Below, in pieces: positions 2,533-42,880 of a stretch of 43,833 nucleotides of DNA. Made by a program: the position numbers and the translations under genes. Within the stretch, counting starts at the first letter, position 1. Each line of letters begins with the position of its first letter. The stretch covers positions 1 to 43,833 of the forward strand of contig CAIWRB010000095.1 in NCBI GenBank assembly GCA_903914955.1, given 5' to 3'. The notes under the pieces were generated by a model that worked only from the letters and a program-made list of their open reading frames with translations, was not told where the DNA came from and ran no database searches. The stretch comes from an uncultured Chloroflexota bacterium. Its GTDB lineage: Bacteria; Chloroflexota; Anaerolineae; Anaerolineales; Villigracilaceae.

Positions 2533-2584
2533 GTTCGCTCCTTATATGCTAGAATAAAGTTTACATTATTTTACGACACAATCC

Positions 2585-3418: not shown

Positions 3419-3445
3419 TAGATTGGTGATTTTGGATTTCCAACA

Positions 3446-4438
3446 ATGATCAACTCTTCGAATTTCATCCATATCTCATATACCCCTGACCTTACTGAAG
3501 GCGGGATCGCGTATGCGCTGCGGTCTTTGCTTTATTCTATTGATGATACAAGCGAAAACATCTACGACCGGCTGCGCCGCTTGGTGGCAGAAGCGGCTGT
3601 GGAACTGGCGTTTCGGCGCCATCTTTCACAGCAGGCTGTTCCCTTTGACGTAACATCTGCAATGCCATTCACCAACCCGGGCAAATTTTTTGTTGAACTT
3701 GGCAGACATCGCTGTGATATAAAATCGTTTCTTGTTTCACGTCGCGATCAAATTTCAGAAATACATCGCAACCCAAACGTGATCTTGAACGCGCCCGCGC
3801 TTGTGCTGTCAGATCATCACATGATCGATGGGCATACAGATAACGATCTTTATTTATTCGCATTTCTTTCAGGGGTGATCGCGGCTTCGCAGGATGATCT
3901 TAAAAAAGTAATTAAAACAAACCAACCGCATTATTTGATGTATGCCATGCCGGCAGCGTGGCGCAAACCGTTGAAATGGAATCCACTTGGGCCGCTAGTT
4001 TTGAAGTCCGAATCAGAGGCACAGCTGCTGATCAAAATCAGCGGGCAGGATGGGGCGCGGGAGTTTTTTACGCGGCTGGTTAATCTGCCGTCGAAAACAC
4101 GTGTTACCATCGAAGATCCTTTTTATTCGATCACATCGGTTCATGCCAAAAATATGCCTTCGGCGCGTTTGGGAATTCATAGTCGGGCATATCCGCAAAC
4201 GCATATGATCTCAGCGTTTGATTGGGGTAATATTTGGGTGTACGGCATGCAGATCATCCTGACGGGTTTTATTCCACGCGGCGAGTTTCGGCAGCGCGCG
4301 AAAATGCTCGCGCCGAATTCGCATGTCTTCCAATATGATCATACAAAAACAAAGAATCTGGCCGTGCCGGTCTCAAATTTGAATCCATTAGAGGATCGGT
4401 TCACGCGTGTGCAGGAATGGAAAGCCGCCCAGGCGTGA
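3446..4438 (+). CDS. Conserved-looking protein of unknown function
   Basis: A 330-residue protein with no recognised domain. It has no signal peptide or membrane segment, so it is probably cytoplasmic. The N-terminal part (SYTPDLTEGGIAYALRSL and then FDVTSAMPFTNPGKFFVELGRHRCDIKSFLVSRRDQI) is rich in charged residues and contains a D-I-K triad after a beta-like stretch. This is faintly reminiscent of PD-(D/E)xK nuclease cores but is not enough to assign one. The remainder looks mixed alpha/beta with a few aromatic clusters (FDWGNIWVYGMQI). It follows the lipoprotein gene by 27 bp on the same strand with no clear ribosome binding site. Coding is supported by length and by the codon use shared with its neighbours. 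Confidence 0.6.
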   Translation: MINSSNFIHISYTPDLTEGGIAYALRSLLYSIDDTSENIYDRLRRLVAEAAVELAFRRHLSQQAVPFDVTSAMPFTNPGKFFVELGRHRCDIKSFLVSRRDQISEIHRNPNVILNAPALVLSDHHMIDGHTDNDLYLFAFLSGVIAASQDDLKKVIKTNQPHYLMYAMPAAWRKPLKWNPLGPLVLKSESEAQLLIKISGQDGAREFFTRLVNLPSKTRVTIEDPFYSITSVHAKNMPSARLGIHSRAYPQTHMISAFDWGNIWVYGMQIILTGFIPRGEFRQRAKMLAPNSHVFQYDHTKTKNLAVPVSNLNPLEDRFTRVQEWKAAQA

Positions 4439-4522
4439 AAAAATTGACCAGTAATTGACCATGAATCTGCATGATTTTCCCCTTGCTTATTCGTTTTTAA
4501 GGTAATATTATGAACATAGAAC

Positions 4523-5347
4523 ATGGAATCTACAAAACAAGAACCTATTCCCAAACCTGACCCAAGACCTGCGCGAAAAACAACAGCCAAACCGCGCATC
4601 TCAAACGCGTTTACAACCACATTGGGTGTTGCGATCCTGGTCGCGACTCTCTTTACCGCGTGGACTCCAGCGAGTATATTCTCAAACAACTTTGAAGAGC
4701 AATTGCTTTTGATGCTCACACCGCAAGTGGAAAAGAATCCAATCATCATTACCTCTCAGCCGCAGTTGCGCATTGGCATTGTCGCGGGACATTCCGGCAA
4801 CGACTCGGGCGCTGTGTGCTACGACGAAAATGGGCAAGTGACGCTTACAGAAGCCGATGTGAATAGCAAGATCGCCAACCTCGTGAAGGATAATCTGGTC
4901 GCGGAAAGCTATCAAGTTGACCTACTCAACGAGTTCGATACGCGCTTGAACGGGTATCGCGCCGTGGTGCTTCTTTCCATTCATAATGACTCCTGTGAAT
5001 ATGTAAACGACCAGGCGACAGGTTTCAAGGTGGCTTCATCGCTTGATACGCATGATATCAACCGAGCGCAGCGTCTCACCGCATGTCTGGTAGATAGGTA
5101 TGAACACACCACGGGAATGACCTTCCATGCGGGCAGCATCACCGGCGATATGCGCGAATATCATGCCTTTTCTGAAGTTGACCCGAATACGATCACAGCA
5201 ATTATTGAAACCGGATTTTTATATCTCGACCGTGAAATACTTACCACCGAAACTGAGCGGGTGGCACAGGGAGTAACTCAGGGGATCCTGTGTTTCCTCA
5301 AGAACGAAAGCGTACCGCCGACACCACTCCCGACAGTTGCACCATGA
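4523..5347 (+). CDS. N-acetylmuramoyl-L-alanine amidase (Amidase_3), membrane-anchored
   Basis: A 274-residue protein with a short basic N-terminus, a transmembrane or signal-anchor segment at about residues 32-50, and an Amidase_3 domain from about 80 to 260. Zinc ligands are visible as His90 (AGHSG), Glu110 (LTEADVN) and His154 (LSIHNDS), and the catalytic Glu229 sits in IIETGF. The enzyme cleaves the bond between N-acetylmuramic acid and the L-Ala of the peptide stem. Its stop overlaps the start of the next gene (ATGA at 5344-5347), which indicates translational coupling with the L,D-transpeptidase and a shared role in peptidoglycan remodelling. An N-terminal catalytic site facing outside is inferred. 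Confidence 0.88.
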   Translation: MESTKQEPIPKPDPRPARKTTAKPRISNAFTTTLGVAILVATLFTAWTPASIFSNNFEEQLLLMLTPQVEKNPIIITSQPQLRIGIVAGHSGNDSGAVCYDENGQVTLTEADVNSKIANLVKDNLVAESYQVDLLNEFDTRLNGYRAVVLLSIHNDSCEYVNDQATGFKVASSLDTHDINRAQRLTACLVDRYEHTTGMTFHAGSITGDMREYHAFSEVDPNTITAIIETGFLYLDREILTTETERVAQGVTQGILCFLKNESVPPTPLPTVAP

Positions 5348-6066
5348 ACAATTCGCCCGATTCTCCACGACGAGGCAAGTTATACCCAGCGTTGATCATT
5401 TTCCTGATCTGTACTGTGGTCGGAGTTGCGGCATGGACGGCAAGTTCATCCCCTGCATTTGGTTTGACGAGCGAGGCGCCAACCCCCACGCATTCAAGTC
5501 CGTTTGCATTGGCGCAGATCGCAAAACCTACCTACACACCATCCCCAACCATTCCGCCCTCTGCGACCCTCCAGCCGACAAACACACCCGAATCATTGGC
5601 AATTGCAGAGATCGTGCTAGATACGCCAACCACCGAATACACCGCGCCGATAAATCCATCCGCCGCAATCTCAGCTCCATCTTATAGTGGAAACAAATAC
5701 ATTCTGGTGGACATCTCTGAACAACACATGTATGTATATGAAGGCGATACGATTATTTATAGCTTCGTCTCGTCCACTGGAATGGGAAACGCCACACGCG
5801 TTGGATTGTTCAGTGTGTTGGATAAAATCCCGAGCGCTTACGGAGCCACCTGGGATATCTGGATGCCGAACTGGCTTGGCATTTACTACTCTGGCAGTTT
5901 GGAAAATGGGATTCACGCCCTGCCAATCCTTCCAAACGGAGCAACTTTATGGGAAGGATATTTGGGTGTGCCAATTTCCTTTGGATGCGTGGTGCTCGGA
6001 ACGTATGAAGCTCAACTCCTCTATGATTGGGCAGAGCTCGGCACACCTGTTGAGATTCAATGGTAA
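5344..6066 (+). CDS. L,D-transpeptidase (YkuD), membrane-anchored
   Basis: A 240-residue protein starting at ATG 5344, inside the ATGA overlap with the amidase gene; the in-frame upstream start at 5290 is less likely because it would overlap by 58 bases. It has one membrane anchor (YPALIIFLICTVVGVAAW), a Thr/Pro-rich linker from about 45 to 100, and a YkuD domain from about 115 to the end. The domain begins KYILVDISEQHMYVYEG. The catalytic Cys215 lies in SFGCVVL, where most family members have SHGCxRL, so the histidine next to the glycine is replaced by Phe. A second conserved His is present in GIHALP. L,D-transpeptidases form 3-3 cross-links in peptidoglycan or attach proteins to it. Confidence 0.85.
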   Translation: MNNSPDSPRRGKLYPALIIFLICTVVGVAAWTASSSPAFGLTSEAPTPTHSSPFALAQIAKPTYTPSPTIPPSATLQPTNTPESLAIAEIVLDTPTTEYTAPINPSAAISAPSYSGNKYILVDISEQHMYVYEGDTIIYSFVSSTGMGNATRVGLFSVLDKIPSAYGATWDIWMPNWLGIYYSGSLENGIHALPILPNGATLWEGYLGVPISFGCVVLGTYEAQLLYDWAELGTPVEIQW

Positions 6067-6156
6067 CCAACAGATCTTTTCGAAAGTCTAAGGCTTTTAA
6101 TTTAACCTTGATGGCTCCTAATTACGTCTATATGCTTACTTTACCGAAGGTGACCC

Positions 6157-7353
6157 ATGAATGATCGTTTTATCGAATCTCGTGAAGCTTTATCGTACGC
6201 CCGCCAGGCTTTGAAAAATGGATCCATGGCAGAAGCGCGTCAATGGGCGGAACGCGCTGCCGAGCTTGCCCCTCAGAGCGAAGATCCGTGGCTGGTGCTT
6301 GCGGCGGCGGTCAGCCCGTCCGAAAGTATGGAGTACATCCGCAAGGCGCTGGAGGCTAATCCGGATAGTCTGCGCGCAAAGAAGGGGATGGAATGGGCCA
6401 TGCAAAGGGTCAACCAGACTCCAAAAGATGGGGCCAGCCCAAGGAAACAGGAGCAGGTCAGGGAGCCGGTAAAGAACGGAAATGTAAAAAATCCCAAGAA
6501 GCGTAAGCTGCTCCCCATCCTGTTGATCGTGATGGGATGCGCTGTCTTTTTATTTGCGGCATGGTCGGCGGTGACTTCGCCCGTACTTGCATCCATTATC
6601 AACATGGCGGCGCCAAAGGCAGAGCAAGCGCCTACGCATCTGCAATCGTTTGCACAGGTGGATATTGCAAAATCAGTCGCGGTGGATGTGCCTGCAATAT
6701 CACAACCAACAGCCCAGGCAACAATACCAACAGCGACGAGTCAACCACTGATCGCCAGCGTTGCTCCGACAAATACACAACAAGCAGTTCAGGCGGCAGT
6801 TGTTCCAGTAGACACGCAAATCACTGAAGCGACGGATGCGCCGACGAGTACTCCAATTGTCGCGCCGACTGAAGCACTGCCCGAAACAACGAGCATACCC
6901 GGTGTGGTATTTGCCGAGATCGTTGCAGATACCCCGACATCAGAATTCGCTGCTCCAACGGCTGCGGCTATTATTCTCCCATCAACCACCGGGAGCGGTG
7001 GTGAGCATTGGATCGATGTTGATCTTTCACAACAGCGCGTGTATGCATATGAAGGCGATACTGTCGTCAATTCCTTTATTGTTTCAACCGGTACCTGGCA
7101 GACACCGACCGTGACCGGTCAATACCATATTTGGATCAAGCTGCTTTCGACGCCAATGTCTGGTCCAGGATACTATTTACCTGGTGTTCCCTACACGATG
7201 TATTTTTATAAAGGCTATGCCCTGCACGGCACATACTGGCATAATAATTTTGGTACGCCCATGAGCCACGGCTGTGTCAATCTTTCAATACCTGATTCTG
7301 AGTGGTTATATAATTTTTCCTCCGTTGGAACATTGGTGAATGTACATTATTAA
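6157..7353 (+). CDS. L,D-transpeptidase (YkuD) with cytoplasmic TPR-like N-terminus
   Basis: A 398-residue protein. Residues 1-80 (ALSYARQALKNGSMAEARQW, SEDPWLVLAAAVS, EYIRKALEANPDS) look like two tetratricopeptide-type helical hairpins. A transmembrane segment follows at about 115-135, then a low-complexity Ala/Thr/Pro linker to about 280 and the YkuD domain to the end. The catalytic Cys373 sits in SHGCVNLS, with HGTYWHNNFG upstream, so the active site is complete. The arrangement places the helical repeats in the cytoplasm and the catalytic domain outside, which could couple an internal partner to wall cross-linking. The start has AAGGTG five bases before the ATG. Confidence 0.87.
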   Translation: MNDRFIESREALSYARQALKNGSMAEARQWAERAAELAPQSEDPWLVLAAAVSPSESMEYIRKALEANPDSLRAKKGMEWAMQRVNQTPKDGASPRKQEQVREPVKNGNVKNPKKRKLLPILLIVMGCAVFLFAAWSAVTSPVLASIINMAAPKAEQAPTHLQSFAQVDIAKSVAVDVPAISQPTAQATIPTATSQPLIASVAPTNTQQAVQAAVVPVDTQITEATDAPTSTPIVAPTEALPETTSIPGVVFAEIVADTPTSEFAAPTAAAIILPSTTGSGGEHWIDVDLSQQRVYAYEGDTVVNSFIVSTGTWQTPTVTGQYHIWIKLLSTPMSGPGYYLPGVPYTMYFYKGYALHGTYWHNNFGTPMSHGCVNLSIPDSEWLYNFSSVGTLVNVHY

Positions 7354-7391
7354 TGGGAAGGAAATAGGCAAAGACAGGTGAAAAGGCTTTA

Positions 7392-8417
7392 TTGTTGAAT
7401 ACTTTATCACGGCGAGATTTTTTGAAATTGAGCGGTTTTGGGCTGGCAGGCTTGCTTGCGCCTCCGCTCAATTTTCTTTTGAATGATCCATTCACCGCCC
7501 AACAAGGACGCATCACCACGCGTATGGTCTGGATGTTCGACCGTCCATCCTATGAGGCGCTACAAGTAAAAATATGTCAGCGTGATACGCTGGTGAATAT
7601 CACCAACACCGCCATCAGCAATGATGAAACCTCCCATAATCGTGTTTGGTATGAGATCGGCCAGGAAGGCTATTTGTATTCTGGAAATATCCAGCCCGTC
7701 CGCACGATCCTGAATTTACCGCGCATGGACATTCCTAAAGAAGGATTACTGGCCGAAATAAGCGTGCCTTATACCGACGCGCACGAAGCCGCAGACATAA
7801 CATCCAAAGTTGCCTACCGCATGTATTACGAAACCACACACTGGATTAAATCTGTGGAAACCAACCCGCAGGATGGACAGGTCTGGTATCAGGTACGCGA
7901 CGATAAATGGAATAATCTATATTACGCGCGCGCAGAACATATCCGCATCATCACGGCGGAAGAAATGGCTCCGATCACTCCGGAGATTCCCGCTGAAAAC
8001 AAAAAGATCATCGTACGCCTCAATGAACAGATCGTGGCCGCTTACGAAAATGATTCTCCGGTATTTGTAACGCCGGTTTCCACGGGTGGTATTTTACGGG
8101 TGGGCACATACACAACGCCGAAAGGCTCGTTCATCACGAATTACAAACGCCCCTCCCGCCACATGGCCGCCGGTGACATCGCGGCCAGCGGTTTTGATCT
8201 GCCCGGCGTGCCCTGGGTACAATACATTACAAAAAGCGGAATATCCTTCCACGGAACTTTCTGGCATAATGATTTTGGTCGTCCGCGCTCGCATGGCTGC
8301 ATTAACCTCTCCGCACAAGCCGCAAAATGGCTGTATCGCTGGACCTCTCCCGATGTTTCTCTGGCAAAGGAATTCTCCTACGGTTTCACAGGAACCAGGG
8401 TTGAGATCGTAGTGTAA
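7392..8417 (+). CDS. L,D-transpeptidase (YkuD) with twin-arginine signal, first copy
   Basis: A 341-residue protein. The N-terminus LSRRDFLKLSGFGLAGLLAPP matches a twin-arginine (Tat) signal, so the enzyme is probably exported already folded. Residues 40-210 form two SH3-like beta modules (RVWYEIGQEGYLYSGNIQPV and VWYQVRDDKWNNLYYARAEHIRII). The YkuD domain spans about 215-341, with FHGTFWHNDFG and SHGCINL carrying Cys303. The start codon is TTG, at 7392 or 7395, preceded by AAAGG; no ATG is available upstream of the Tat motif. It is followed 34 bp later by a paralogue of the same architecture. Confidence 0.86.
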   Translation: MLNTLSRRDFLKLSGFGLAGLLAPPLNFLLNDPFTAQQGRITTRMVWMFDRPSYEALQVKICQRDTLVNITNTAISNDETSHNRVWYEIGQEGYLYSGNIQPVRTILNLPRMDIPKEGLLAEISVPYTDAHEAADITSKVAYRMYYETTHWIKSVETNPQDGQVWYQVRDDKWNNLYYARAEHIRIITAEEMAPITPEIPAENKKIIVRLNEQIVAAYENDSPVFVTPVSTGGILRVGTYTTPKGSFITNYKRPSRHMAAGDIAASGFDLPGVPWVQYITKSGISFHGTFWHNDFGRPRSHGCINLSAQAAKWLYRWTSPDVSLAKEFSYGFTGTRVEIVV

Positions 8418-8451
8418 GAATCCAGATGCAAAAGAACGTCTGCTAAAAACA

Positions 8452-9480
8452 ATGATGAAAGACATTCCACTCTCCCGCCGTGATTTTCTAAAACTTTCCG
8501 CTTCGGGCGCACTCGCGCTTGTTCTATCCGAAATAGGCATTGACCGTGCCCTAGCCGCTCCACTCACATCGCAGGGACGCATCACCTGGAGCGGCATTCC
8601 GCTTTTCGACGCACCCTCATTAAATGCAAATAAACTACATCTATTCGGAATGGATCAGGTCATTGATCTCAAAGCCGAGGTGGAGGGTGACACAGGCTAT
8701 GGAAATCCGTTCAATCGGATTTGGTATCAATTGGATGGCGGATACACTTACTCAGGCTGGATCCAACCGGTTGAGACAAAATACCAAAAACCCGTTTATG
8801 AGATCCCCATCACAGGCAAGCTCGGCGAGATCACCGTGCCGATGAGTCTCACTTATGTTGACCCATTTTTTAACGCAAAGAACAAACATCGTTTATATTA
8901 CGGAACCACCCATTGGATAAAAAAAGTAGTAGTAACCCGTGAAGAGAAGAGCATTTGGTACCAGATATATGACAACGTGCTTAAGCGCTCTTTTTACGTA
9001 CCATCCCACAATATGCGCCTCGTTCCGCCCGAGGAACTGACCATGCTTTCTGCGGAAGTTCCCGCCGCTGAAAAATTGATCCACGTCGATCTTGCGACAC
9101 AAATGGTCACCGCCTTCGAAGGCGAAAAACTGGTGTTTTCATCTCGTTGTTCAAGCGGCCAGCAAGGGACGGCTACCCCGGTTGGGAAATACTCCACTTT
9201 TCACAAATGGCCATCCGTCCACATGACGAATCAAGGTGATGCCGTGAATAATATTTATAATCTGGCCGGCGTGCCGTGGTGTTCATTTTTTACAGGTTTC
9301 GGTCACGCTTTTCACGGAGCTTATTGGCATAACGACTATGGCCGCCCGCGCAGTCACGGTTGTGTGAATCTGCCGTCAGCGGATGCCAAATGGTTATATC
9401 GCTGGACCAACCCCCTGGTCCCGCCCGACGAGGATTATTTGTATTTGCCCGGCGAGGGGACACCGGTCATTATCGTGTAA
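8452..9480 (+). CDS. L,D-transpeptidase (YkuD) with twin-arginine signal, second copy
   Basis: A 342-residue paralogue of the preceding gene. The Tat signal is LSRRDFLKLSASGALALVLS followed by a likely cleavage near DRALAAP. SH3-like modules (RIWYQLDGGYTYSGWIQPV and IWYQIYDNVLKRSFYVPSHNMRLV) precede a YkuD domain with FHGAYWHNDYG and SHGCVNLPS carrying Cys304. The two Tat-type copies share the same domain order and an almost identical active-site region, so they arose by tandem duplication, but they differ throughout the beta modules. Two ATG codons, 8452 and 8455, could start it. Confidence 0.87.
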   Translation: MMKDIPLSRRDFLKLSASGALALVLSEIGIDRALAAPLTSQGRITWSGIPLFDAPSLNANKLHLFGMDQVIDLKAEVEGDTGYGNPFNRIWYQLDGGYTYSGWIQPVETKYQKPVYEIPITGKLGEITVPMSLTYVDPFFNAKNKHRLYYGTTHWIKKVVVTREEKSIWYQIYDNVLKRSFYVPSHNMRLVPPEELTMLSAEVPAAEKLIHVDLATQMVTAFEGEKLVFSSRCSSGQQGTATPVGKYSTFHKWPSVHMTNQGDAVNNIYNLAGVPWCSFFTGFGHAFHGAYWHNDYGRPRSHGCVNLPSADAKWLYRWTNPLVPPDEDYLYLPGEGTPVIIV

Positions 9481-9509
9481 CTCAATCATAAAGATCACAA
9501 GGAGTAGAA

Positions 9510-10085
9510 ATGAATCCAGCTTTTCAATTCAATCAATATGTACTCAAACGACAGGTGTTCGCGTTGGCCGGCAAATTCCGTTTCTACGACCCAAGTGGAA
9601 AACTAGTGCTGTTCAGCGAACAGAAAATGTTCAAACTGCGCGAGGATATCCGCGTGTTTTCAGACGAAACAAAAACGCAGGAAGTGTTAATGATCAAAGC
9701 GCGCCAGATCATCGATTTCTCCGCCGCCTTCGATGTTGTAGACAGCGGCATGGGGCAAAAAATTGGTGCGTTACGCCGCAAGGGACTTGCTTCCCTGCTG
9801 CGTGATGAATGGGAAATTCTCGACACAAGTGACAATGTGATCGGGTCGTTGTTTGAAGACAGCATGGGACTGGCATTGATACGCCGCTTTCTTAGCAACC
9901 TCGTTCCGCAAAATTATGACATAACCATGGGCACCGAGCGCGTGGCGGATCTTAAACAAAACTTCAATCCATTCACCTATCAATTGAACCTGGATTTCAG
10001 CATGGATATCAATAAACGACTCGACCGCCGTTTGGGAATCGCCGCTGGAATTTTGTTGGCCGCCATTGAAGGAAGACAGAGTTAA
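9510..10085 (+). CDS. LURP-one-related / tubby-C-like fold protein
   Basis: A 191-residue protein without signal or strong membrane segment. Its pattern (YVLKRQVFALAGKFRFYDPSG, LVLFSEQKMFKLREDIRVFSDE, LMIKARQIIDFSAAFDVVD, IGALRRKG, DEWEILDTSDNVIGSLFEDS, NYDITMGTERVADLKQNFNPFTYQLNLDFS) is that of the LURP-one-related or scramblase-like family, a beta barrel with a central C-terminal helix. Functions in bacteria are not settled. The C-terminal helix LGIAAGILLAAIEG could pass through the barrel. An AGGAG ribosome binding site is at 9500-9504. The stop overlaps the next start in TAATG. Confidence 0.78.
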   Translation: MNPAFQFNQYVLKRQVFALAGKFRFYDPSGKLVLFSEQKMFKLREDIRVFSDETKTQEVLMIKARQIIDFSAAFDVVDSGMGQKIGALRRKGLASLLRDEWEILDTSDNVIGSLFEDSMGLALIRRFLSNLVPQNYDITMGTERVADLKQNFNPFTYQLNLDFSMDINKRLDRRLGIAAGILLAAIEGRQS

Positions 10086-13665: not shown

Positions 13666-14169
13666 ATGCTTCGAATAAACCGACAAACCGATTACGCTGT
13701 TCGCGTCATACTTTCCCTCTCGAAAAAGGCTCAAGGAAGCCGTGTATCAACATCCAAGATCGGCCGCGAAATGCTCATCCCACCCGCACTTCTCCAGCGC
13801 ATCGTTGCTCAGTTGGCAGGCGGCGGATTCATTAATACCCAAGCCGGGCGCGATGGCGGCATCACCCTCGCTCATGAACCAAAAGAGATCAGTCTGCTTG
13901 AAGTTGTTGAACACTTTGAGGGCGAACTTTATCTTTCCGACTGCATCCTAAAACCCGGCGATTGTCCATTTGAAATGCGCTGTCCAGTCCACTGTCAATG
14001 GGTACGGCTGAAAAATATGCTCCGCGATGAAATGGCGCGCATCACTTTTCAACAACTTGTGGAGGAAGGCAGCCTGATCGAATCTAATCTGACAAAAAAC
14101 ACTTCAAACCGCCCGAAACCTGTTCCAATTACGAACAATATTTTGCTTCCCGAAGAAACTCCTGCATGA
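13666..14169 (+). CDS. Rrf2-family transcriptional regulator, likely Fe-S sensing
   Basis: A 167-residue protein with the Rrf2 winged-helix N-terminus (MLRINRQTDYAVRVILSLS, ISTSKIGREMLIPPALLQRIVAQL, GGFINTQAGRDGGITLA). Cysteines at 93, 100, 106 and 110 sit in the wing-to-helix loop, close to where IscR and NsrR bind a 2Fe-2S or 4Fe-4S cluster. The stop overlaps the next start (ATGA at 14166-14169), so it is the first gene of the oxidase operon and probably controls it in response to NO, oxygen or Fe-S status. No Shine-Dalgarno sequence precedes the ATG, and a -10-like GATAAT only a few bases upstream suggests a leaderless message. Confidence 0.85.
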   Translation: MLRINRQTDYAVRVILSLSKKAQGSRVSTSKIGREMLIPPALLQRIVAQLAGGGFINTQAGRDGGITLAHEPKEISLLEVVEHFEGELYLSDCILKPGDCPFEMRCPVHCQWVRLKNMLRDEMARITFQQLVEEGSLIESNLTKNTSNRPKPVPITNNILLPEETPA

Positions 14170-14840
14170 ACAAGTATTTGCTAAACGGCCTATATTTTCT
14201 GTTTGCCATTATCATAATTTCAGCTTTTGCATTCAAACTATTCCAGCCGATAAAAGTTTTACCGCGCATGCAACTTGCGCCTGCTTTTAACCTTACAGAT
14301 CAAAACGACGCCCGCCTCACCAGCGAAGAATTGCGTGGAAAATTCGTTCTTTATAATTTTACATATGTCAATTGCCCTGCTCCCTGTTACAACCTCAACA
14401 AAACCATGCAGGAAGTGCAAACTCGTTTAAGTGAAGCGGAACTGGGCGACATTCAGGTTGAGTTCATCACGATATCATTTGACCCGGACCGCGACACCTC
14501 CGCAGTTTTAAGAACCTACGCTGACTCGATTGGCGCAGATACAAAACAATGGAGTTTTGCCACCAATACAAACAAAGCCCTGCTAAAAACCATCATCGGC
14601 TCTGGCTTTGAAACCTACTATGAAGACAAAGGGGATGGAAAATTTGCATTCGACCCATCTTTTGTGCTTGTGGATGGCTGGGGCATTGTACGCGCTGAAT
14701 ACCGCTATCAAACAGAAGTTTCTGATGCAGATCGAATCATTCGCCACCTAAGCGTACTTGCAGAAGAAGTCCGTAACAGCACTGGCACGGCGAAATTGGC
14801 ATATGAAGCTGCTCACTTATTTTTATGTTACGCACCATAA
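14166..14840 (+). CDS. SCO1/SenC-type protein with incomplete copper site
   Basis: A 224-residue membrane-anchored thioredoxin-fold protein (N-terminal anchor YLLNGLYFLFAIIIISAFAF). The CxxxC copper-binding pair is Cys70 and Cys74 in NCPAPC. SCO proteins carry copper to, or reduce cysteines of, the CuA site of oxidase subunit II. The distal histidine, normally just before the LxxD strand, is absent: the sequence there is FAFDPSFVLVDGWG. It may therefore act as a thiol reductase and not a copper donor. It is translationally coupled to rrf2. Confidence 0.82.
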   Translation: MNKYLLNGLYFLFAIIIISAFAFKLFQPIKVLPRMQLAPAFNLTDQNDARLTSEELRGKFVLYNFTYVNCPAPCYNLNKTMQEVQTRLSEAELGDIQVEFITISFDPDRDTSAVLRTYADSIGADTKQWSFATNTNKALLKTIIGSGFETYYEDKGDGKFAFDPSFVLVDGWGIVRAEYRYQTEVSDADRIIRHLSVLAEEVRNSTGTAKLAYEAAHLFLCYAP

Positions 14841-14858: not shown

Positions 14859-15446
14859 ATGAAGCTCAAAATTGGAATTGCCATCACTATCTTTTTCACA
14901 GGACTGGCTCTGGGTGTTTACTTTTTCAGCCCGCACACTTTCCACGGGACGGTCATTCAATCGCCAAATCCATCCTTTGATTTCACGTTGACTGGCGCGG
15001 ATGGCGATGTTTCATTAAGTGATTTTCGCGGCAAGCTTGTTGTTATATATTTCGGTTACACCTTCTGCCCTGATATTTGTCCCGCCACATTAGCCAATGT
15101 TGGACAAGCATTGCGCCGCATGAATGAAAATCAGTCAAAAAATGTTCAATTAATAATGATCTCGCTCGACCCGGAACGTGACACACCGAAGAAACTGTCT
15201 GAATATGTTGTGCATTTTTATCCATCCTTTATTGGTATCACTGGCTCAAATGAAAAACTGGCAGAGGTCACATCTCTTTACGGCATTTTCTACGAAAAAA
15301 GCGCGGGCAGTACAACAGAAAACTATACGATAGATCATACTGCCACCCTCTTAGTAATTGACCGTGAAGGGTATCTAAAATTAGTATTTCCATTTGGCGT
15401 GACCGTGGATGAGATCGCCGATGATCTGAAATATATGTTAAGGTAA
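14859..15446 (+). CDS. SCO1/SenC copper chaperone for cytochrome oxidase
   Basis: A 195-residue membrane-anchored protein with a complete SCO copper site: Cys70 and Cys74 in FCPDIC and His160 in IDHTATLLVID. The N-terminal anchor is GIAITIFFTGLALGVYFF. This is the likely CuA-site metallochaperone for subunit II three genes downstream. With the preceding SCO-like protein it forms a pair, one with and one without the distal histidine, suggesting a division of labour between copper delivery and disulfide reduction (inference from SCO/TlpA pairs in other bacteria). Confidence 0.88.
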   Translation: MKLKIGIAITIFFTGLALGVYFFSPHTFHGTVIQSPNPSFDFTLTGADGDVSLSDFRGKLVVIYFGYTFCPDICPATLANVGQALRRMNENQSKNVQLIMISLDPERDTPKKLSEYVVHFYPSFIGITGSNEKLAEVTSLYGIFYEKSAGSTTENYTIDHTATLLVIDREGYLKLVFPFGVTVDEIADDLKYMLR

Positions 15447-15559: not shown

Positions 15560-15700
15560 ATGGCAAAAAAAGAGCACGAAAATAATGATGAGTTTCGCCC
15601 AAACGGAACCATAGCGATCCTGGTCGTTTTTGTGATCACTACCCTTCTAATTTGGGGCACGATCTACATGATCCTGATCAGCAGGGGGAGCACAATATGA
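15560..15700 (+). CDS. Small CoxIIa-like subunit of ba3-type cytochrome oxidase
   Basis: A 46-residue gene: ATG at 15560 with AAGGAGA at 15546-15552, TGA at 15698-15700. It encodes a charged N-terminus (MAKKEHENNDEFRPNG) and one membrane helix (TIAILVVFVITTLLIWGTIYMILI). This is the size and pattern of the single-helix subunit IIa of ba3 oxidases such as that of Thermus, which supplies the helix missing from the shortened subunit II. Its stop overlaps the subunit II start (ATGA), and its place directly before subunits II and I agrees. Confidence 0.8.
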   Translation: MAKKEHENNDEFRPNGTIAILVVFVITTLLIWGTIYMILISRGSTI

Positions 15701-16197
15701 GCGCGCAACCAATGCATATTCATCCGTACGAACGCAATTGGATGGTCTTCAGCGCCGTTATGCTGGTGCTGTTTGCGACTGCGGTGAGCGTCGCGGCTTT
15801 TGGCATGGGGATTCAAGTCCCTGCGCCTGAACAACGCGTTGACCCGCGAATCGTGGCAACCGACCCCAACAGCCCATGGTCAAACCCAGGGTTACGCGAG
15901 GTCTCGCCTGGTAAATATGATGCCTATATTTTGGCTCACGCGATCCCGGTCTGGGAATACCTGCCCAAGGAAATCACAGTACCCGCTGGCTCCAGCGTAT
16001 CCTTCTATGTGACATCATCTGATGTACAGCATGGTTTCAAGATACAGGATACAAATGCCAATTTTATGGTTATTCCTGGCCAGGTTTCCAAGTTGACCAT
16101 TAAATTTAACAAACCCGGCACATACAATTACATTTGTACTGAATACTGTGGCAGCGGTCATGGAATTATGTACGGTGCAATTATCGTTACGCCATAG
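15697..16197 (+). CDS. Cytochrome c oxidase subunit II, ba3 type, CuA-binding
   Basis: A 166-residue protein starting at ATG 15697 in the ATGA overlap; an in-frame TTG at 15652 exists but would overlap the small subunit gene. It has a single membrane helix (WMVFSAVMLVLFATAVSVAAFG), as in ba3-type subunit II, and a cupredoxin domain. The CuA ligands are all present: His112, Cys147, Cys151, His155 and Met158 (Glu149 providing a backbone carbonyl). The domain accepts electrons from a cytochrome c or a small copper protein on the outer face and passes them to subunit I. Confidence 0.92.
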   Translation: MSAQPMHIHPYERNWMVFSAVMLVLFATAVSVAAFGMGIQVPAPEQRVDPRIVATDPNSPWSNPGLREVSPGKYDAYILAHAIPVWEYLPKEITVPAGSSVSFYVTSSDVQHGFKIQDTNANFMVIPGQVSKLTIKFNKPGTYNYICTEYCGSGHGIMYGAIIVTP

Positions 16198-16215: not shown

Positions 16216-17865
16216 ATGAAACAATATCAATTATCCACTGGCGAAAAGAAATTCATTGGCTCACACCTTTTGGTAGCCATCCTCGCGCTTTCTGTTGGCA
16301 GTTTGTTCGGCCCCTTGCAAGCCTTTGAACACGCGGGCTGGGATATTTATCCCTATATTAAGCCCTTGATCAAGTCGTATTATCAAGGGCTTACTGTGCA
16401 CGGCGTATTGAATGCCTTGGTTTGGACAACCTTCTTCATCATGGGTTTCTTGACTTTCAATGTGATGTTCGGCTTGAAGCGCCCCCTCAAGAACCCGACC
16501 CTGAACAAGGTTGGTTTCTGGCTTATGGTGGTCGGCGTGGTTGCTGCGGCGATCCCGATCCTTGCCAACCAGGCTACTGTACTCTTCACCTTTTACCCTC
16601 CACTGAAGGCAAACTGGGCTTTTTATCTTGGTCTGACTCTTGTGGTGGTAGGCAGTTGGGTGGAAGGCTGGGGACTTTTCATGACCTATTTCGCCTGGCG
16701 AAAGGAAAACCCAAAAGAACTCACTCCATTTATAGCTTTTGCCAGTCTTGTCACAGCCTTGCTTTGGCAAATTTGTACGATCGGGGTCGCTACTGAAATA
16801 CTGACCATGCTTTTACCGTGGTCGCTCGGCTTGATCGCGGGAGTTGATCCACAACTAGCCCGCACCTATTTCTGGTTCACCGGCCACCCGCTTGTATATT
16901 TCTGGATTCTGCCCGCCTACATTTCGTGGTATGCCATGCTTCCCAAGCAGGCTGGCAATGGCAAGATGTTCAGCGATTCGCTCGCCCGTCTTTCCTTCTG
17001 GATATTCCTCGTTCTCTCCACACCTCTTGGTTTCCATCACCAATATGTGGATCCTGGCATTCCTCCCGTTTGGAAGTTCATCCACTCCATGCTCACCTTC
17101 AGTGTATTCTTCCCCTCGATGATGACCGCCTTCACCGTGATCGCTTCCCTTGAACACGCTGGGCGCAAAAACGGCGGTAAAGGTACTTTCGCCTGGATCG
17201 GAAAATTGAATTGGAGTGACCCCTCGGTCGCCGCTCAACTTTTAGCCGGCATCCTCTTCTTCTTTGGCGGTATCGGTGGTTTGGCAAATGCTTCGTACAA
17301 TGTCAACCTGGTTTTGCACAATACCGCTTTCATTCCCGGCCACTTTCACCTGACCGTTGCAACAGCCGTCACCTTGAGTTTTATGGGCATTTCCTATTGG
17401 CTGCTGCCCTACCTCACCGGCAAGAAACTTTGGATGCCCAAGTTGGCAGTTGCTCAGGCATGGATCTGGTTCGTCGGTATGATCATCTTCTCCAATGCCA
17501 TGCACGTATTGGGATTGCTCGGCGCTCCACGCCGTGTACCGCTCGGTCTGGCTCCCTACGTTCCCCCTGAATGGAACAGCCGCCTCTTCCAGGTCGGCGT
17601 TGGCGGCGCGATTCTTTTCGTCAGCGGTGCCTGCTATCTCACAGTCATGCTCATGACCGCCTTGAGCAAGGAAACCGTCAAGGAAGAAGTGGAAGTACCT
17701 GTTGCCGAATCGATGCAGGATCTCGCACTGACTCCTGTCTGGCTAGATCGTTGGGCTCCCTGGATTTACGGCGCCCTCGCATTGATAGTGCTCGTATATG
17801 GGCCTGTGCTTTTTGACTTGATCAAGAACATCGCACTCACCTCACCTGGCTTTAGAGTCTGGTAA
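16216..17865 (+). CDS. Cytochrome c oxidase subunit I, B-family (ba3-type) heme-copper oxidase
   Basis: A 549-residue membrane protein. The low-spin heme ligands are His62 ([12 protein letters not shown]) and His378. CuB ligands are His224 (GHPLVYFW, with Tyr228 four residues on for the His-Tyr crosslink) and His274-His275 ([10 protein letters not shown]). His376 ([11 protein letters not shown]) is the high-spin heme ligand. The long non-canonical loops and the absence of a D-channel Asn/Asp pattern fit the B family, which has high oxygen affinity. It is preceded by AAGAGAG and closed by a strong terminator. Confidence 0.93.
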
Positions 17866-17954: not shown

Positions 17955-20285
17955 ATGACATCTTCCCCTTCCAAAAAACAACTAACTGATTCTCTTTCTG
18001 AACGCAATCCCAGCGTGGACTGGGATGCGCGTCTCAATTCTCCAAGCCGACGACTGCTAAATTTTTTCGAGGGGATTTCTCTGCGCCTCGAAGCCCCTAT
18101 CAACTGGCTGATCAACGACCCACGCTTCAATCCTCTCTATCACACGGGAACGATTACCATCTTCCTGCTGGTCGTCATCCTATTGACAGGCATCTACCTG
18201 ACCATGTTCTACCCGTTTGGATTCTCGATCTCATATCAGGCTGTATCCAGGATCGAAGCCAACTTCATCGGACGTATCATGCGCGCCATGCACCGCTACG
18301 CATCTGACGCGGCGGTTATCTTCGCGCTTCTGCATGGCTGGCGCACCTTCTTCCAAGACCGCTTCCGCGGCCCGCGCTGGCTGGCATGGATCACAGGCGT
18401 TGGCATGGCGGTTGTGGTGTGGGTCATCGGCATCACAGGCTACTGGCTCATTTGGGATAACCGCGCACAGATCCTGAACCAAAGCCTTTTCGACATCCTC
18501 GGCAATTTCAAAAGCGGACAAAATTTTATCGTCAAATTTATTGTCGGCGAATCCGCAGGCAACGGTTGGGTTTTCATGATAACCGTCATTCTTTTGCATG
18601 TTGGTCTTTCGGCGCTGACCGCCTACTTCCTATGGCTGCACCTAAAACGCATGAGTCGCGCAAAATGGATGCCGCCCAAATACTGGATGGTCATTTCGAT
18701 CTTCGTGCTCCTGCTTTCAGCGGCGCTCTTCCCGCTCGGCATGTTGCCACCGCTCAACACCACACAACTTCCTGAAAAAACCCCCATTGATTTATTTTAT
18801 TTATTCTATCTGCCCACCTTTCTGCGCGGACCTCAGGCGTTTTTTTGGAGCGTCCTGCTTTTCGTTCTTGGCTTATCCATTGCCCTGCCGTGGATCATGC
18901 CCCGCGTAAAAAAACTTGACCCGATCAAAGTAGACCTGGCCAACTGCGACGGCTGTACTCTCTGCGAACGTGATTGTCCCTATCTAGCCATTAAAATGAT
19001 TCCCCGCACAGATGGCGCGCGCCCAAAATTCCAAGCCGACATAGATTCCGATCTATGCGTCTCATGCGGCGTGTGTATTGGAAGTTGTCCCGATAACGCA
19101 CTCACCTTCGCCGACCTTCCGCTGAATCCACTTTGGAAAATTACCCTCAGCGAAGTTGCGAAAAACAAAAATATAAAAGTTGTTTTCACCTGCGAACGCC
19201 ACGCTTTGCACGGCGCAGAAAAACACTTCGGCGATCCCAACACTTACATTGTTCCACTCACCTGCGTCGCCATGGCAAACCCAAATCTCATTGCGCAGGC
19301 GCTCGAAGCAGGCGCAAGCGCCGTTCAATTCATCGGCTGCCCGCCCGAAGACTGCGCGAACCGCGAAGGCAATCTCTGGTTGAATGAGCGGGTTACGGGT
19401 GCACGGCTTCCCAAATTAAAACCAAACTTCATTCCGCTCGTTCACACCGCCTGGGTGGCTCCCACTGAATTTGGCAACGCGCTCAAATCACAGATTAAGT
19501 CCGACCCGAATACATACACCTTCGCCCCCAACAAAACTCATATCCGTTATATTCTGCCCTTGCTGGGAGCCATGGCAATTGTCACTGCTTTTCAAATTTG
19601 GTTTAGCGACAGGCCGATTCAATTCTTCAGCGCAGATTCAGTCACACTCGCCATTCAGATGACTCACCACAGCGGATATGCCATCCACGACAAAGCAGAT
19701 CAAGCGCCGCTCGAAACTGGTCTTGACCATCCGACACGCCTCACACTGGAAGTGGATGGAAAACTCGTATTCGATGAAACATACAAAGATCAGGATAATG
19801 ATATCAATCAAGGCGTGCGCATCTTTGAGCAAATCAGAATGCCTGTTGGTAAACATCACATCACGATAAAAATATATGATAGACCTGACGAAAATATAGC
19901 CCAGATTCTTTTCGACAAAACCATTCCCCTTACAGCACGGCAATCCCTGACCATAAACTTCAGGGACGTGCACATTCCCGACCCAAAGGCTGGCGAAAGC
20001 ATTTACTATGAAACCGCCGCGGGCGTAAACGCAGGCTGCCAAATTTGCCACTCCCTTGAAAAAGATGAAACCATCATCGGCCCATCCTTTTATGGAATTG
20101 CAAGCCGCGCAGGCGACCGCGTTTCAGGCCTGACAGCGGAAGAATATCTACACCAATCCATCGTTGACCCGAACGCCTATATCGTGCCTGGTTTTCCAAA
20201 AGGACAAATGATCCAAAATTTTGGAAAGATCCTCACGGAAGAGCAGGTCAATGACCTGATTGCGTTCTTGATGACGATGAAATAA
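17955..20285 (+). CDS. Cytochrome b / 2x[4Fe-4S] / MvhD-like / cytochrome c fusion protein
   Basis: A 776-residue single-chain redox protein. Residues 40-320 are a cytochrome b (b6-like) region with about six membrane helices and four heme ligands, His113/His127 and His215/His229, each pair 14 apart as in bc complexes. Residues 331-341 (CDGCTLCERDC) and 368-378 (CVSCGVCIGSC) bind two 4Fe-4S clusters. Residues 408-515 resemble the MvhD/FlpD iron-sulfur subunit family, with Cys413, Cys437, Cys462 and Cys467. A seventh helix (532-550) leads to a beta-rich linker and a C-terminal cytochrome c with CQICH (695-699) and probable ligand Met752. Helix count puts Fe-S domains inside and the heme c outside. 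No Rieske gene is nearby, so this may replace a bc complex as electron donor to the upstream ba3 oxidase; that is inference. Confidence 0.85.
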   Translation: MTSSPSKKQLTDSLSERNPSVDWDARLNSPSRRLLNFFEGISLRLEAPINWLINDPRFNPLYHTGTITIFLLVVILLTGIYLTMFYPFGFSISYQAVSRIEANFIGRIMRAMHRYASDAAVIFALLHGWRTFFQDRFRGPRWLAWITGVGMAVVVWVIGITGYWLIWDNRAQILNQSLFDILGNFKSGQNFIVKFIVGESAGNGWVFMITVILLHVGLSALTAYFLWLHLKRMSRAKWMPPKYWMVISIFVLLLSAALFPLGMLPPLNTTQLPEKTPIDLFYLFYLPTFLRGPQAFFWSVLLFVLGLSIALPWIMPRVKKLDPIKVDLANCDGCTLCERDCPYLAIKMIPRTDGARPKFQADIDSDLCVSCGVCIGSCPDNALTFADLPLNPLWKITLSEVAKNKNIKVVFTCERHALHGAEKHFGDPNTYIVPLTCVAMANPNLIAQALEAGASAVQFIGCPPEDCANREGNLWLNERVTGARLPKLKPNFIPLVHTAWVAPTEFGNALKSQIKSDPNTYTFAPNKTHIRYILPLLGAMAIVTAFQIWFSDRPIQFFSADSVTLAIQMTHHSGYAIHDKADQAPLETGLDHPTRLTLEVDGKLVFDETYKDQDNDINQGVRIFEQIRMPVGKHHITIKIYDRPDENIAQILFDKTIPLTARQSLTINFRDVHIPDPKAGESIYYETAAGVNAGCQICHSLEKDETIIGPSFYGIASRAGDRVSGLTAEEYLHQSIVDPNAYIVPGFPKGQMIQNFGKILTEEQVNDLIAFLMTMK

Positions 20286-20305: not shown

Positions 20306-20731
20306 ATGAAAAAAATCAACACATTAATTTTTGTATTCGCCATAGCCCTCTCGGCCTGTGGACGCAAACCTCCCGCAGCATTAGGCGCGGATGCCCCAGC
20401 CGATAATGTCCCAAACATCGTCGGTTCATACGCACTCAATGCAATTGACCCAACAGGTGAGCAATATGGCGGCACACTCACCATCACTAACGGTGAACAG
20501 CCAAACGAATACGAATTTCAATGGCTGGTCTCGGGCGGCATCCACCAGGGGACGGGCATCCTTGAAGGAAATCAATTAACCGTGGTCTGGCACAGTTATT
20601 CAGAAACAGATGCTCCCGTTTCAGGTACTGCGAGCTATACCGTCACAGTCAATGGAGAACTTTACGGAACCCGAACCATTGATGGATTGGAAGCACCCGG
20701 CAACGAAACTGCTTATCCGAATCCAGGGTAA
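20306..20731 (+). CDS. Small lipoprotein linked to the cytochrome fusion gene
   Basis: A 141-residue protein with a classical lipoprotein signal (MKKINTLIFVFAIALSAC, lipobox Cys18). The mature part is a small beta-rich domain (IVGSYALNAIDPTGEQYGGTLTI, YEFQWLVSGGIHQGTGILEGNQLTVVW, GTASYTVTVNGELYGTRTIDG) that looks like a lipocalin-like or fibronectin-binding-like sheet, with no cofactor motif. It follows the fusion gene by 20 bp with GAGGAATC before the ATG, so it is likely co-transcribed and may stabilise or cap the exposed part of that protein. Confidence 0.7.
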   Translation: MKKINTLIFVFAIALSACGRKPPAALGADAPADNVPNIVGSYALNAIDPTGEQYGGTLTITNGEQPNEYEFQWLVSGGIHQGTGILEGNQLTVVWHSYSETDAPVSGTASYTVTVNGELYGTRTIDGLEAPGNETAYPNPG

Positions 20732-29353: not shown

Positions 29354-30124
29354 TTGAAAATCATCGCATGTATCAAGCAGGTACCCGACTCGGAGGCGAA
29401 AGTCAAAACCGAGGGCGGGCAGGTATCGTGGGGGGACGCGCCGCTGGTCATCAACCCGTTCGACGAGTACGCTGTCGAAGGCGCGCTTCAGCAGAAGGAA
29501 GCCTCAGGCGGCACAGTAACAGCCTTGTGCGTCGGCGGCGAATCAGCTAAGGATGCGCTCAAGCATGCACTCGCCATGGGCGCAGATGATGCAGTACTCG
29601 TCTCAGATGCCGCGCTCAACGATATTGACACTGTCGGGGCGGCGCGTGTTCTGGCGGCGGCCATCAACAAGATCGGCGGCGCAGACATGGTCATCTTTGG
29701 CCGTCAGACTCTCGACAATGGCGCAGGCCTCACGCCCGCGCAGACCGCCCGCATTATCGGGTGGCCGATGCTTGGGCTGGCAGGTCAGATCAAAGTCGAC
29801 GCTGGCAGCGTTTCCGTTGAACGAGTCCTCGAAGAAGGCAGGCAAACTGTCAGCGCGAAAATGCCGGTTGTGTTGAGCGTCGTCCAAAGCATTGGCGAAC
29901 CGCGCTACCCGTCGTTCATGGGCATCCGCAAAGCGTCAAAGGCAACTATCCCCGTTTGGTCACTGGCAGATATCAACACCGCCGCGCCCGCGCCAGTCAT
30001 CACGCGCACCGAGTTGACGACCCCGCCCGCGCAGGAAAAAGAAGTTGAAATGATCACAGGCGAAAGCGCCGCTGATATCGCGGACAAACTCGCCGACAAA
30101 ATTCTCGCGGAGAAAGTGCTATGA
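29354..30124 (+). CDS. etfB: Electron transfer flavoprotein beta subunit
   Basis: A 256-residue protein with the EtfB pattern: MKIIACIKQVPDSEAKV, INPFDEYAVEGALQQKE, TVTALCVGGESAKDALKHALAMGADDAVLVSD and the signature VVLSVVQSIGEPRYPSFMGIRKASK. It binds AMP and, with EtfA, carries electrons from acyl-CoA or other flavin dehydrogenases to the quinone pool. The start is TTG at 29354, supported by AAGGAG at 29341-29346. Its stop overlaps the etfA start (ATGA at 30121-30124). Confidence 0.93.
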   Translation: MKIIACIKQVPDSEAKVKTEGGQVSWGDAPLVINPFDEYAVEGALQQKEASGGTVTALCVGGESAKDALKHALAMGADDAVLVSDAALNDIDTVGAARVLAAAINKIGGADMVIFGRQTLDNGAGLTPAQTARIIGWPMLGLAGQIKVDAGSVSVERVLEEGRQTVSAKMPVVLSVVQSIGEPRYPSFMGIRKASKATIPVWSLADINTAAPAPVITRTELTTPPAQEKEVEMITGESAADIADKLADKILAEKVL

Positions 30125-31134
30125 AAACTTTTGTTTACATTGACCATTTCAAAGGCGAGGTACAGCCTGCTTCATGGGAGGCGATCGGCCTCGCGAAAAA
30201 TTATGGTACAGCCGTAGCCTTGGTGTTTGGCGCGGATACGGACGAGATCACAAAGGCCGCTTTTGAATATGGCGCCGATGAAGTGATCGTCGTGGATGAT
30301 GCAGCGCTGACAGACTATCTCGCTGAACCGTATGCATCGACCCTCTCGGCGCTCGCTGCTTCTTCCAGCCCGGACCTGATCCTGTTTCCGACAACTGCTC
30401 GAACCCGTGAGATGGCCGCCATGTCCGCAGTGGATTTATCCACAGGCGTGTTGACCGATGTCACAGGTTTCGAAATGAATGGCGATCAGTTCGTTGCCAC
30501 CCGCCCCATTTACGAAGGCAAGCTATTGGAGAAAACTGTTTGCTCCGGCAAACCCGTCATGGCCACCATTCGCGGACGTGTATTCCCCAAACCAGCGCGT
30601 GAATCTGGTAAGACTGGCACGCTCACAAAAGGTGTTGCGAAGACTGACACGCTCTCGACCGCGCATGGCTACTCTGCCGCTGAAAGCGCAGTAAACCTCG
30701 GTGACGCGGCTGTCATCGTCTCTGGTGGACGTGGCGTCTCAAATAACCCATCCTTAACCCCACCCGCGGGAATGGATGAAAAACAAGCCGAGGTCTGGCG
30801 CGCCCAGCAAGGCTTCGCGCTCATCACCGACCTCGCTGTTTTACTTGGCGGCGCAGTTGGCGCATCCCGCGCGGCAGTGGATGGTGGATACATCACCTAT
30901 GCTCATCAAGTCGGACAGACAGGCAAAGTCGTCACACCTGATCTTTATATCGCCTGCGGCATCTCCGGCGCGATCCAGCACCTCGTTGGGATGAGAAATG
31001 CCAAGGTGATCGTGGCGATCAATAAGGACGCAGATGCGCCCGTTTTCAAGCAGGCGCGTTATGGCGTAGTTGGCGATCTATTTGCGATCGTCCCCGCGTT
31101 GACCGAGGCAATGAAGAAAAAAATGGGGAAGTAA
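30121..31134 (+). CDS. etfA: Electron transfer flavoprotein alpha subunit
   Basis: A 337-residue protein with the N-terminal Etf fold (TFVYIDHFKGEVQPASWEAIGLAKNYG) and the C-terminal FAD-binding domain (IVSGGRGVSNN, LGGAVGASRAAVDGGYITYAHQVGQTGKVVTPDLYIACGISGAIQHLVGMRNAKVIVAINKD). The FAD signature is complete. No dehydrogenase or ETF:quinone oxidoreductase gene lies beside it, so its partner is elsewhere. Coupled to etfB and closed by a strong terminator. Confidence 0.94.
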   Translation: MKTFVYIDHFKGEVQPASWEAIGLAKNYGTAVALVFGADTDEITKAAFEYGADEVIVVDDAALTDYLAEPYASTLSALAASSSPDLILFPTTARTREMAAMSAVDLSTGVLTDVTGFEMNGDQFVATRPIYEGKLLEKTVCSGKPVMATIRGRVFPKPARESGKTGTLTKGVAKTDTLSTAHGYSAAESAVNLGDAAVIVSGGRGVSNNPSLTPPAGMDEKQAEVWRAQQGFALITDLAVLLGGAVGASRAAVDGGYITYAHQVGQTGKVVTPDLYIACGISGAIQHLVGMRNAKVIVAINKDADAPVFKQARYGVVGDLFAIVPALTEAMKKKMGK

Positions 31135-42859: not shown

Positions 42860-42880
42860 ATTGTAAAGCCTCCCTTCCAA

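Follow-up and report, generated by a model that had tools for sequence, protein, structure and literature searches.

A single-chain fusion of cytochrome b, ferredoxin, MvhD/FlpD-like and cytochrome c modules encoded beside a ba3-type oxidase in Chloroflexota

We analysed a stretch of 43,833 nucleotides from an uncultured Chloroflexota bacterium of the family Villigracilaceae (contig CAIWRB010000095.1 of assembly GCA_903914955.1), which is referred to as the window. One open reading frame of this stretch encodes a protein of 776 residues, here called the fusion, in which a cytochrome b, two 4Fe-4S ferredoxin motifs, an MvhD/FlpD domain and a cytochrome c are joined in a single chain. The gene is part of a same-strand run that comprises an Rrf2 regulator, two SCO genes, the oxidase subunits II and I, the fusion and a lipoprotein (Table 1). 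Relatives were taken from a scan of named genomes, which gave at least 79 distinct named loci (all denominators of 79 refer to these), and from an alignment of 57 rows.

Table 1. Coordinates of the fusion, its modules and neighbouring genes in the window, and of the operon of the paralogue FUS2
Feature	Position	Strand	Evidence or remark
Rrf2-family transcription regulator, first in operon	13666..14169	+	PF02082, E 1e-29; RRF2-like gene on 32/79 loci
SCO1/SenC copper chaperone, copy a	14166..14840	+	PF02630, E 9e-19
SCO1/SenC copper chaperone, copy b	14859..15446	+	PF02630, E 1e-39
Oxidase subunit II with CuA-type motif	15652..16197	+	PF00116; CxExCxxxHxxM in translation
ba3-type oxidase subunit I, GHPLVY motif, tyrosine present	16216..17865	+	E 2e-146 to 3eh3_A
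Fusion protein (cytochrome b, 2x4Fe4S, FlpD, helix G, beta domain, cytochrome c)	17955..20285	+	
Cytochrome b helices A-F, residues 60-314	18132..18896	+	Ligand pairs H113/H215 and H127/H229
Two 4Fe-4S ferredoxin motifs, residues about 325-390, F-G loop insertion	18927..19124	+	PF00037/PF12838
MvhD/FlpD domain, residues 405-515; C413xxH416, C437, C462, C467	19167..19499	+	PF02662
Transmembrane helix in cytochrome b helix G position, residues 527-551	19533..19607	+	Model alignments reach 554-559 in many rows
Outside-facing beta-sandwich domain, residues 552-675, without clear known relative	19608..19979	+	Model pLDDT 88
Class I cytochrome c domain, residues 677-776; CxxCH 695-699; GQM, likely Met ligand	19983..20282	+	PF00034
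Small lipoprotein, LIC10280-like, 20 bases 3' of the fusion	20306..20731	+	NF050085, E 2e-12, under its curated cut-off
FUS2 operon (COX2-COX1-DsbD_2-copper ATPase-FUS2)	L033 2908-10417		ATPase named from sequence only

The CuA-type motif of subunit II reads CTEYCGSGHGIM; TTG is the listed start of this gene, although the ATG at 15697 may be the actual one. Subunit I matched, besides the chain given in Table 1, the chain 1ehk_A, which is titled ba3-type, with E 3e-143; both structures are of Thermus origin. By its sequence, the neighbouring enzyme is a ba3-type oxidase with a CuA subunit II and the catalytic tyrosine, which bears out the initial annotation of the fusion as adjoining such an oxidase. 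In the fusion itself, Pfam placed Cytochrome_B at residues 57-231 (E 1e-11), Fer4-type motifs at about 324-384, FlpD at 410-481 (E 6e-11) and Cytochrom_C at 692-776 (E 1e-6), all above cut-off. All four modules recognized initially were thus confirmed, but their number was not, as the beta domain is a fifth.

The four heme histidines of helices B and D (H113, H127, H215 and H229) and the eight cysteines of the two 4Fe-4S motifs (C331/334/337/341 and C368/371/374/378) had been noticed in the window protein, and all of them are present and invariant in 57/57 aligned relatives. R235 is likewise invariant and R232 nearly so. An AlphaFold2 (AF2) model of the fusion had a mean predicted local distance difference test (pLDDT) score of 88 and a predicted template modelling score (pTM) of 0.82. 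Residues 55-318 of this model, and in many rows residues up to about 558, superpose on cytochrome b of bc complexes. All 50 fold matches listed were bc-complex cytochrome b (Z 18.3-22.4, 254-265 residues, root-mean-square deviation (rmsd) 3.1-4.8), with 9ftz_H at the top (Z 22.4, 257 residues, rmsd 3.1); for mitochondrial-type chains the alignment extended to about residue 343. These alignments assign the membrane part to helices A-F plus the segment 527-551 at the position of helix G, so that in the model it probably covers helix G too and reaches beyond the b6-like half.

The ef loop of cytochrome b in bc complexes carries the motif PEWY, which is not kept in the fusion, where D279-L-F-Y is found instead. 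Position 279 is D in 55/57 rows and N in 2/57, and is followed by x-x-[Y/F/L]. When helices E-F were compared with subunit IV by hhalign, D279-LFY came to lie opposite PWYL/PWYF with a probability of only 26% (E 7e-4). The assignment of this region is carried by the fold match. H63 aligns to the position of Cys35 in b6, the cysteine that binds heme ci, and is His in 54/57 rows.

In cytochrome b the F-G loop lies on the inner side of the membrane. Lysine and arginine account for 3/11, 2/8 and 4/12 residues in the predicted inner loops (B-C, D-E and the start of F-G, respectively) and for 1/20, 3/38 and 2/35 residues in the outer ones. Helix counting had previously placed the Fe-S modules in the cytoplasm and heme c outside, and this topology is supported by both the model and the loop charges: as modelled, the Fe-S and FlpD block sits in the cytoplasmic F-G loop, and the beta domain and heme c are outside.

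The FlpD part also gave a profile match to the MvhD-type chain 9sw2_D of the PDB (E 1e-9), and the full set of C413, C437, C462 and C467 is present in 51/57 relatives. The MvhD CxxC motif is C413xxH416 in the fusion, so that four of the five MvhD cysteines are kept, and H416 is His in 21/21 aligned rows (A3). The earlier assignment of an MvhD-like domain with its cysteines therefore holds with regard to homology and four cysteines, but not for the fifth cysteine. If His416 is a ligand, the domain would carry a Cys3His-type cluster of raised potential. A Pfam domain search found no flavin site in the chain.

The beta domain could not be assigned to a family with confidence. Searches against PDB profiles gave nothing better than E 0.17, and Foldseek returned no match below 1e-3. 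The top match by VIA (Z 7.8), a domain of HGSNAT, was taken to reflect a generic sandwich. FixG_C (PF11614), considered as the identity of this domain, had zero sequence matches in the 57 members, where DUF4399 was the leading weak hit, in 10/57; no clear fold family emerged. In the C-terminal cytochrome c domain, the model is poor near the heme c motif (pLDDT below 50 for residues 689-711).

Near-full-length matches to the fusion, with 65-97% identity, were found in 14 other genomes of the window genus; the match in G019 contains one in-frame stop, and in three genomes of the same genus (G003, G012 and G039) the fusion is in pieces or in a divergent form. With the named loci, these matches show that the reading frame did not arise by chance. 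Among the matches listed, the closest named record was a Chloroflexi metagenome-assembled genome (L085, 97% identity). By title, nearly all named loci belong to Chloroflexota and a few to Actinomycetota (L124, L126, L128 and L152). Of 400 genomes drawn evenly from the phylum, 12 contained a match, 11 of them in the family of the window; five of the 12 had the fusion proper and seven the paralogue alone. A split relative, in which the beta domain is encoded by its own gene, was found on a plasmid of the alphaproteobacterium Defluviimonas sp. SAOS-178_SWC (L172), where its neighbours are genes for heme o synthase, SCO, a CuA-type subunit and a tyrosine-less oxidase-like subunit I. In L090, L097, L100 and L103, the fusion is followed directly downstream by genes that resemble those for a flavoprotein of the sulfide:quinone reductase type, for subunits of cytochrome bd oxidase and for a CydDC-like transporter, named from sequence starts only.

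In a tree built on the cytochrome b-Fe-S-FlpD part, the 29 heme-c-fused rows formed one side of a branch with a support of 100/99. In the unfused form, a cytochrome c gene lies upstream of the fusion gene in 18/27 loci, and this gene is downstream of subunit I wherever the contig includes it. The paralogue FUS2 (G000:C122, L033) has 686 residues and lacks heme c; it keeps the b-heme and 4Fe-4S ligands, and 6/7 rows of its clade are without the complete FlpD cysteine set. FUS2 is linked to a second type of subunit I, which has GHPAQQ instead of GHPLVY and therefore no catalytic tyrosine. Q was found in 9/10 second-type reading frames, and one frame labelled as second type has the tyrosine; in subunit I of the window type the tyrosine is kept in 64/64. 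CuA-type motifs are kept in subunit II of both linked types. The FUS2-partner enzyme is B-type-like and resembles the degenerate heme-copper enzymes called sNOR, and the FUS2 operon is a candidate nitric oxide reductase operon. In the available part of PMC6431628, tyrosine-less B-family enzymes are described as degenerate oxidases for which there are indirect indications that they act on nitric oxide; the FUS2 partner resembles them in its CuA-type subunit II and GHPAQQ motif, whereas the window's own oxidase has the tyrosine. All forms share a common core, namely a cytochrome b wired to inner ferredoxin clusters and an outer beta domain, with one CuA enzyme each.

The initial annotation had suggested that the fusion feeds the oxidase and proposed co-occurrence as a check, and the tie between the two was upheld. 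By tblastn, an oxidase subunit I gene was present on 68/79 loci, upstream on the same strand in 66 and upstream on the opposite strand in two; this count includes L142, whose subunit I is of the second type. Nine of the 11 loci without subunit I have less than 1.5 kb of upstream sequence before the contig end. In L135 the upstream stretch is occupied by a Rieske gene set, and L117 is a true exception. Across 49 genomes of the genus, the fusion and the ba3 subunit I occurred together in 17 (17 of the 18 fusion genomes), while one genome had the fusion alone and another subunit I alone (p 5e-11). FUS2 and the second subunit I occurred together in 23 of the 49, and one had only the second subunit I. 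The crossed pairs (fusion with the second enzyme, FUS2 with ba3) were not significantly linked in these 49 genomes (p 0.08 and 0.15). These Fisher p-values overstate independence because the genomes are related. The scoring left out G035 with its 79-residue C-terminal match from the fusion counts, counted a short FUS2 match in G012, where the fusion begins at a contig end without a visible ba3 subunit I, and scored a 105-residue oxidase fragment in G013 as oxidase.

From these data we tentatively propose, as the most likely of the readings but at a little below an even chance, that the fusion is a transmembrane electron bridge dedicated to the oxidase. A soluble cytoplasmic donor, such as ferredoxin or an Fe-S flavoprotein, would reduce the FlpD 2Fe-2S site and/or the two 4Fe-4S clusters, provided that these cofactors are loaded as the ligands suggest. 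Electrons would then move to the b heme near the inner face (H127/H229), from there to the one near the outer face (H113/H215), to the C-terminal heme c outside and finally to the CuA site of the adjoining ba3 oxidase; the direction of this flow, its donor and its acceptor are what we infer. The remaining Q pockets could let quinone exchange electrons. The strongest point for this bridge is that a class I cytochrome c is fused to the chain. It also draws on the invariant heme and 4Fe-4S ligands, the modelled fold and topology, the tie to subunit I, the separate cytochrome c gene of many unfused loci, the CuA-type motifs in both kinds of subunit II and the loss of PEWY. It is possible, if rather unlikely, that the protein goes further and serves as a quinone-pool bypass, that is, a single-chain ferredoxin:cytochrome c oxidoreductase that feeds CuA-type oxygen reductases, and via the paralogue possibly nitric oxide reductases, with the His-substituted 2Fe-2S site as docking port.

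Several observations weigh against an electron bridge. The strongest is FUS2, a paralogue in which heme c is missing and the FlpD cysteines are mostly lost; heme c is then dispensable for the function shared by the two proteins. In addition, the operon has no fixed donor gene, the copper-delivery genes in the operons fit a role in assembly equally well, and a step that carries electrons outward and pumps no protons is wasteful of energy.

With regard to the donor, the window genome, which also encodes an oxygen-reducing enzyme, contains an HdrABC-MvhADG-like cluster (L034 4059-11148) in which genes for hydrogenase subunits and one resembling a maturation protease are present, all named from sequence. 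A search for HdrA (E 1e-30) found it in 18/24 fusion genomes and not in G003, G007, G012, G029, G030 and G039, which are 77-96% complete and in which the only FlpD matches were the fusion or its pieces. HdrA or a hydrogenase was thus rejected as obligatory partner, and the docking to HdrA or hydrogenase that MvhD domains had initially suggested is not required. A GltD-like flavoprotein was rejected as fixed donor as well, since it had no match in the window genome at E 1e-30; it was matched in 4/25 genomes, strongly in G039 and G055 and partially in G015 and G001.

It had also been suggested that the fusion replaces a Rieske-containing bc complex. The cytochrome b C-terminal domain (PF00032) had no match in the window genome, a draft of 470 contigs, and the fusion used as query at E 1e-20 returned only itself and FUS2, PF00033 not being searched genome-wide. 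Of the two Rieske matches of this genome, one was a vanillate-demethylase-like oxygenase and the other a small Rieske protein. However, contig C295 of the same genome carries, in the 8,000 of its 13,441 bases that were read, ActD beside genes for two cytochromes, of five hemes and of one, and for molybdopterin-type, Fe-S and NrfD proteins, a gene set that reads as alternative complex III, which serves the step from quinol to cytochrome c. ActD was detected in 46/49 genomes of the genus. PF00032 was present in 10/18 genus genomes with the fusion and in 20/31 without it (p 0.56), so that the presence of the fusion does not track the absence of a bc complex. Moreover, in 13/79 loci the stretch with the fusion also includes a Rieske gene, often accompanied by genes for cytochrome b6 and subunit IV, for a cytochrome c with three hemes and for a GltD-like flavoprotein. 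We therefore rejected replacement of the bc complex as a general reading: the window genome gave no PF00032 match, yet genes of alternative complex III are present in it, and some relatives have the fusion together with a Rieske-cytochrome b set. Taken together, the PF00032, ActD and Rieske-locus data suggest that, on this evidence, the fusion adds to a quinol:cytochrome c complex and does not substitute for it.

The main rival to an electron bridge is a redox assembly factor similar to CcoG, which would conduct cytoplasmic electrons outward via the hemes and keep copper or SCO thiols reduced while CuA and CuB are built. According to the available part of PMC7558416, the cupric reductase CcoG/FixG also has two 4Fe-4S clusters and an outer C-terminal domain of Ig-like beta type, and is encoded in a ccoGHIS cluster; copper and oxidase genes are nearby in both cases. 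Two SCO genes in the window operon, the DsbD_2 and copper ATPase genes beside a FUS2 that lacks heme c, the heme o synthase and SCO genes beside the Defluviimonas relative and the finding that FixG_C was not detected in the window genome all fit this role. Still, we regard it as unlikely: the beta domain lacks both a FixG_C match and a convincing fold match, that part of PMC7558416 mentions no b heme for CcoG, and the fused cytochrome c of class I hints at a part in respiratory electron transfer. A Rieske-free quinol:cytochrome c oxidoreductase, in which oxidation of menaquinol at a Qo-like pocket would supply the fused heme c with electrons and the Fe-S clusters would be a side entry, would agree with the cytochrome b fold including the ef-loop region and with the lack of any other match to the cytochrome b C-terminal domain in the window genome. 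We consider it improbable, given the altered PEWY motif, the alternative complex III genes, the PF00032 counts and the Rieske loci, and it would leave the invariant Fe-S cysteines unexplained.

The insertion of the Fe-S block at the inner side of cytochrome b, the histidine at the heme ci position and the conserved R235 and R232 could instead point to a ferredoxin:quinone reductase. In such an enzyme cytoplasmic electrons would reach menaquinone near the inner face via the inner b heme, heme c would be a secondary exit, and the protein would hard-wire the route from ferredoxin that has been proposed for b6f. A link with CuA enzymes and cytochrome c is unexpected for a general quinone reductase, and this function seems very unlikely to us. 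The least credible option, which we give hardly any weight, is a quinol-fed bifurcation, in which one electron of menaquinol would go to heme c and CuA and the other via the b hemes and Fe-S clusters to a cytoplasmic acceptor. High- and low-potential branches do occur in one chain, and a gene for a GltD/NfnB-like NAD(P)H flavoprotein is present on 13/79 loci. However, that gene is found mostly with the Rieske set, the chain itself lacks a recognizable flavin site, and the low-potential branch would oppose the membrane potential. Nothing we found points toward the electron bifurcation raised in the initial annotation.

The fusion is a member of the cytochrome b superfamily that stands outside the Rieske/bc complexes. 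It shares with bc1, bcc and b6f cytochrome b (PF00033/PF00032) the four heme histidines at the usual spacing and the fold, but differs in having ferredoxin and FlpD between helices F and G and the beta domain with heme c in place of helix H, in lacking PEWY and in an operon that, in the window, contains no Rieske gene. Compared with MvhD/FlpD of HdrABC-MvhAGD, to which the profile match and four of five cysteines relate it, it has His416 for one cysteine, is part of a membrane chain and occurs in genomes where HdrA was not found. It differs from CcoG/FixG by its b hemes and heme c, and from alternative complex III, whose ActA-E/NrfD type proteins are unrelated and encoded elsewhere in the window genome. 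Each module is known; no description of their combined arrangement with the F-G loop insertion was found in the open-access literature searched, including the available parts of PMC9012536, PMC7558416, PMC6431628 and PMC8756737.

Cytochrome b is at the core of respiration and photosynthesis, and a direct transfer from ferredoxin to the inner heme, as in cyclic flow through b6f, has long been debated. With ferredoxin clusters tied to the inner side of cytochrome b in one chain, a step from ferredoxin to heme b would become measurable in a self-contained protein. If the electrons indeed reach heme c and CuA, the fusion would form a branch of respiration in which the quinone pool is bypassed.

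Other genes of possible redox function were observed outside this operon. L069 carries at 1993-9690 a molybdopterin oxidoreductase cluster with NrfD, a nitrate-reductase-delta domain in one frame with ferredoxin, and multiheme cytochromes c. In the window, genes for electron-transfer flavoprotein subunits of the beta and alpha type lie 9 kb downstream of the fusion (29354-31134, plus strand), and three consecutive L,D-transpeptidase (YkuD) genes, two of them with SRRDFLKLS Tat-like starts, are located at 6157-9480 on the plus strand. Finally, a reading frame of 2486 residues on the minus strand (35420-42880) encodes a giant multiheme cytochrome with 105 CxxCH motifs and Cytochrome_C7/c3 repeats.

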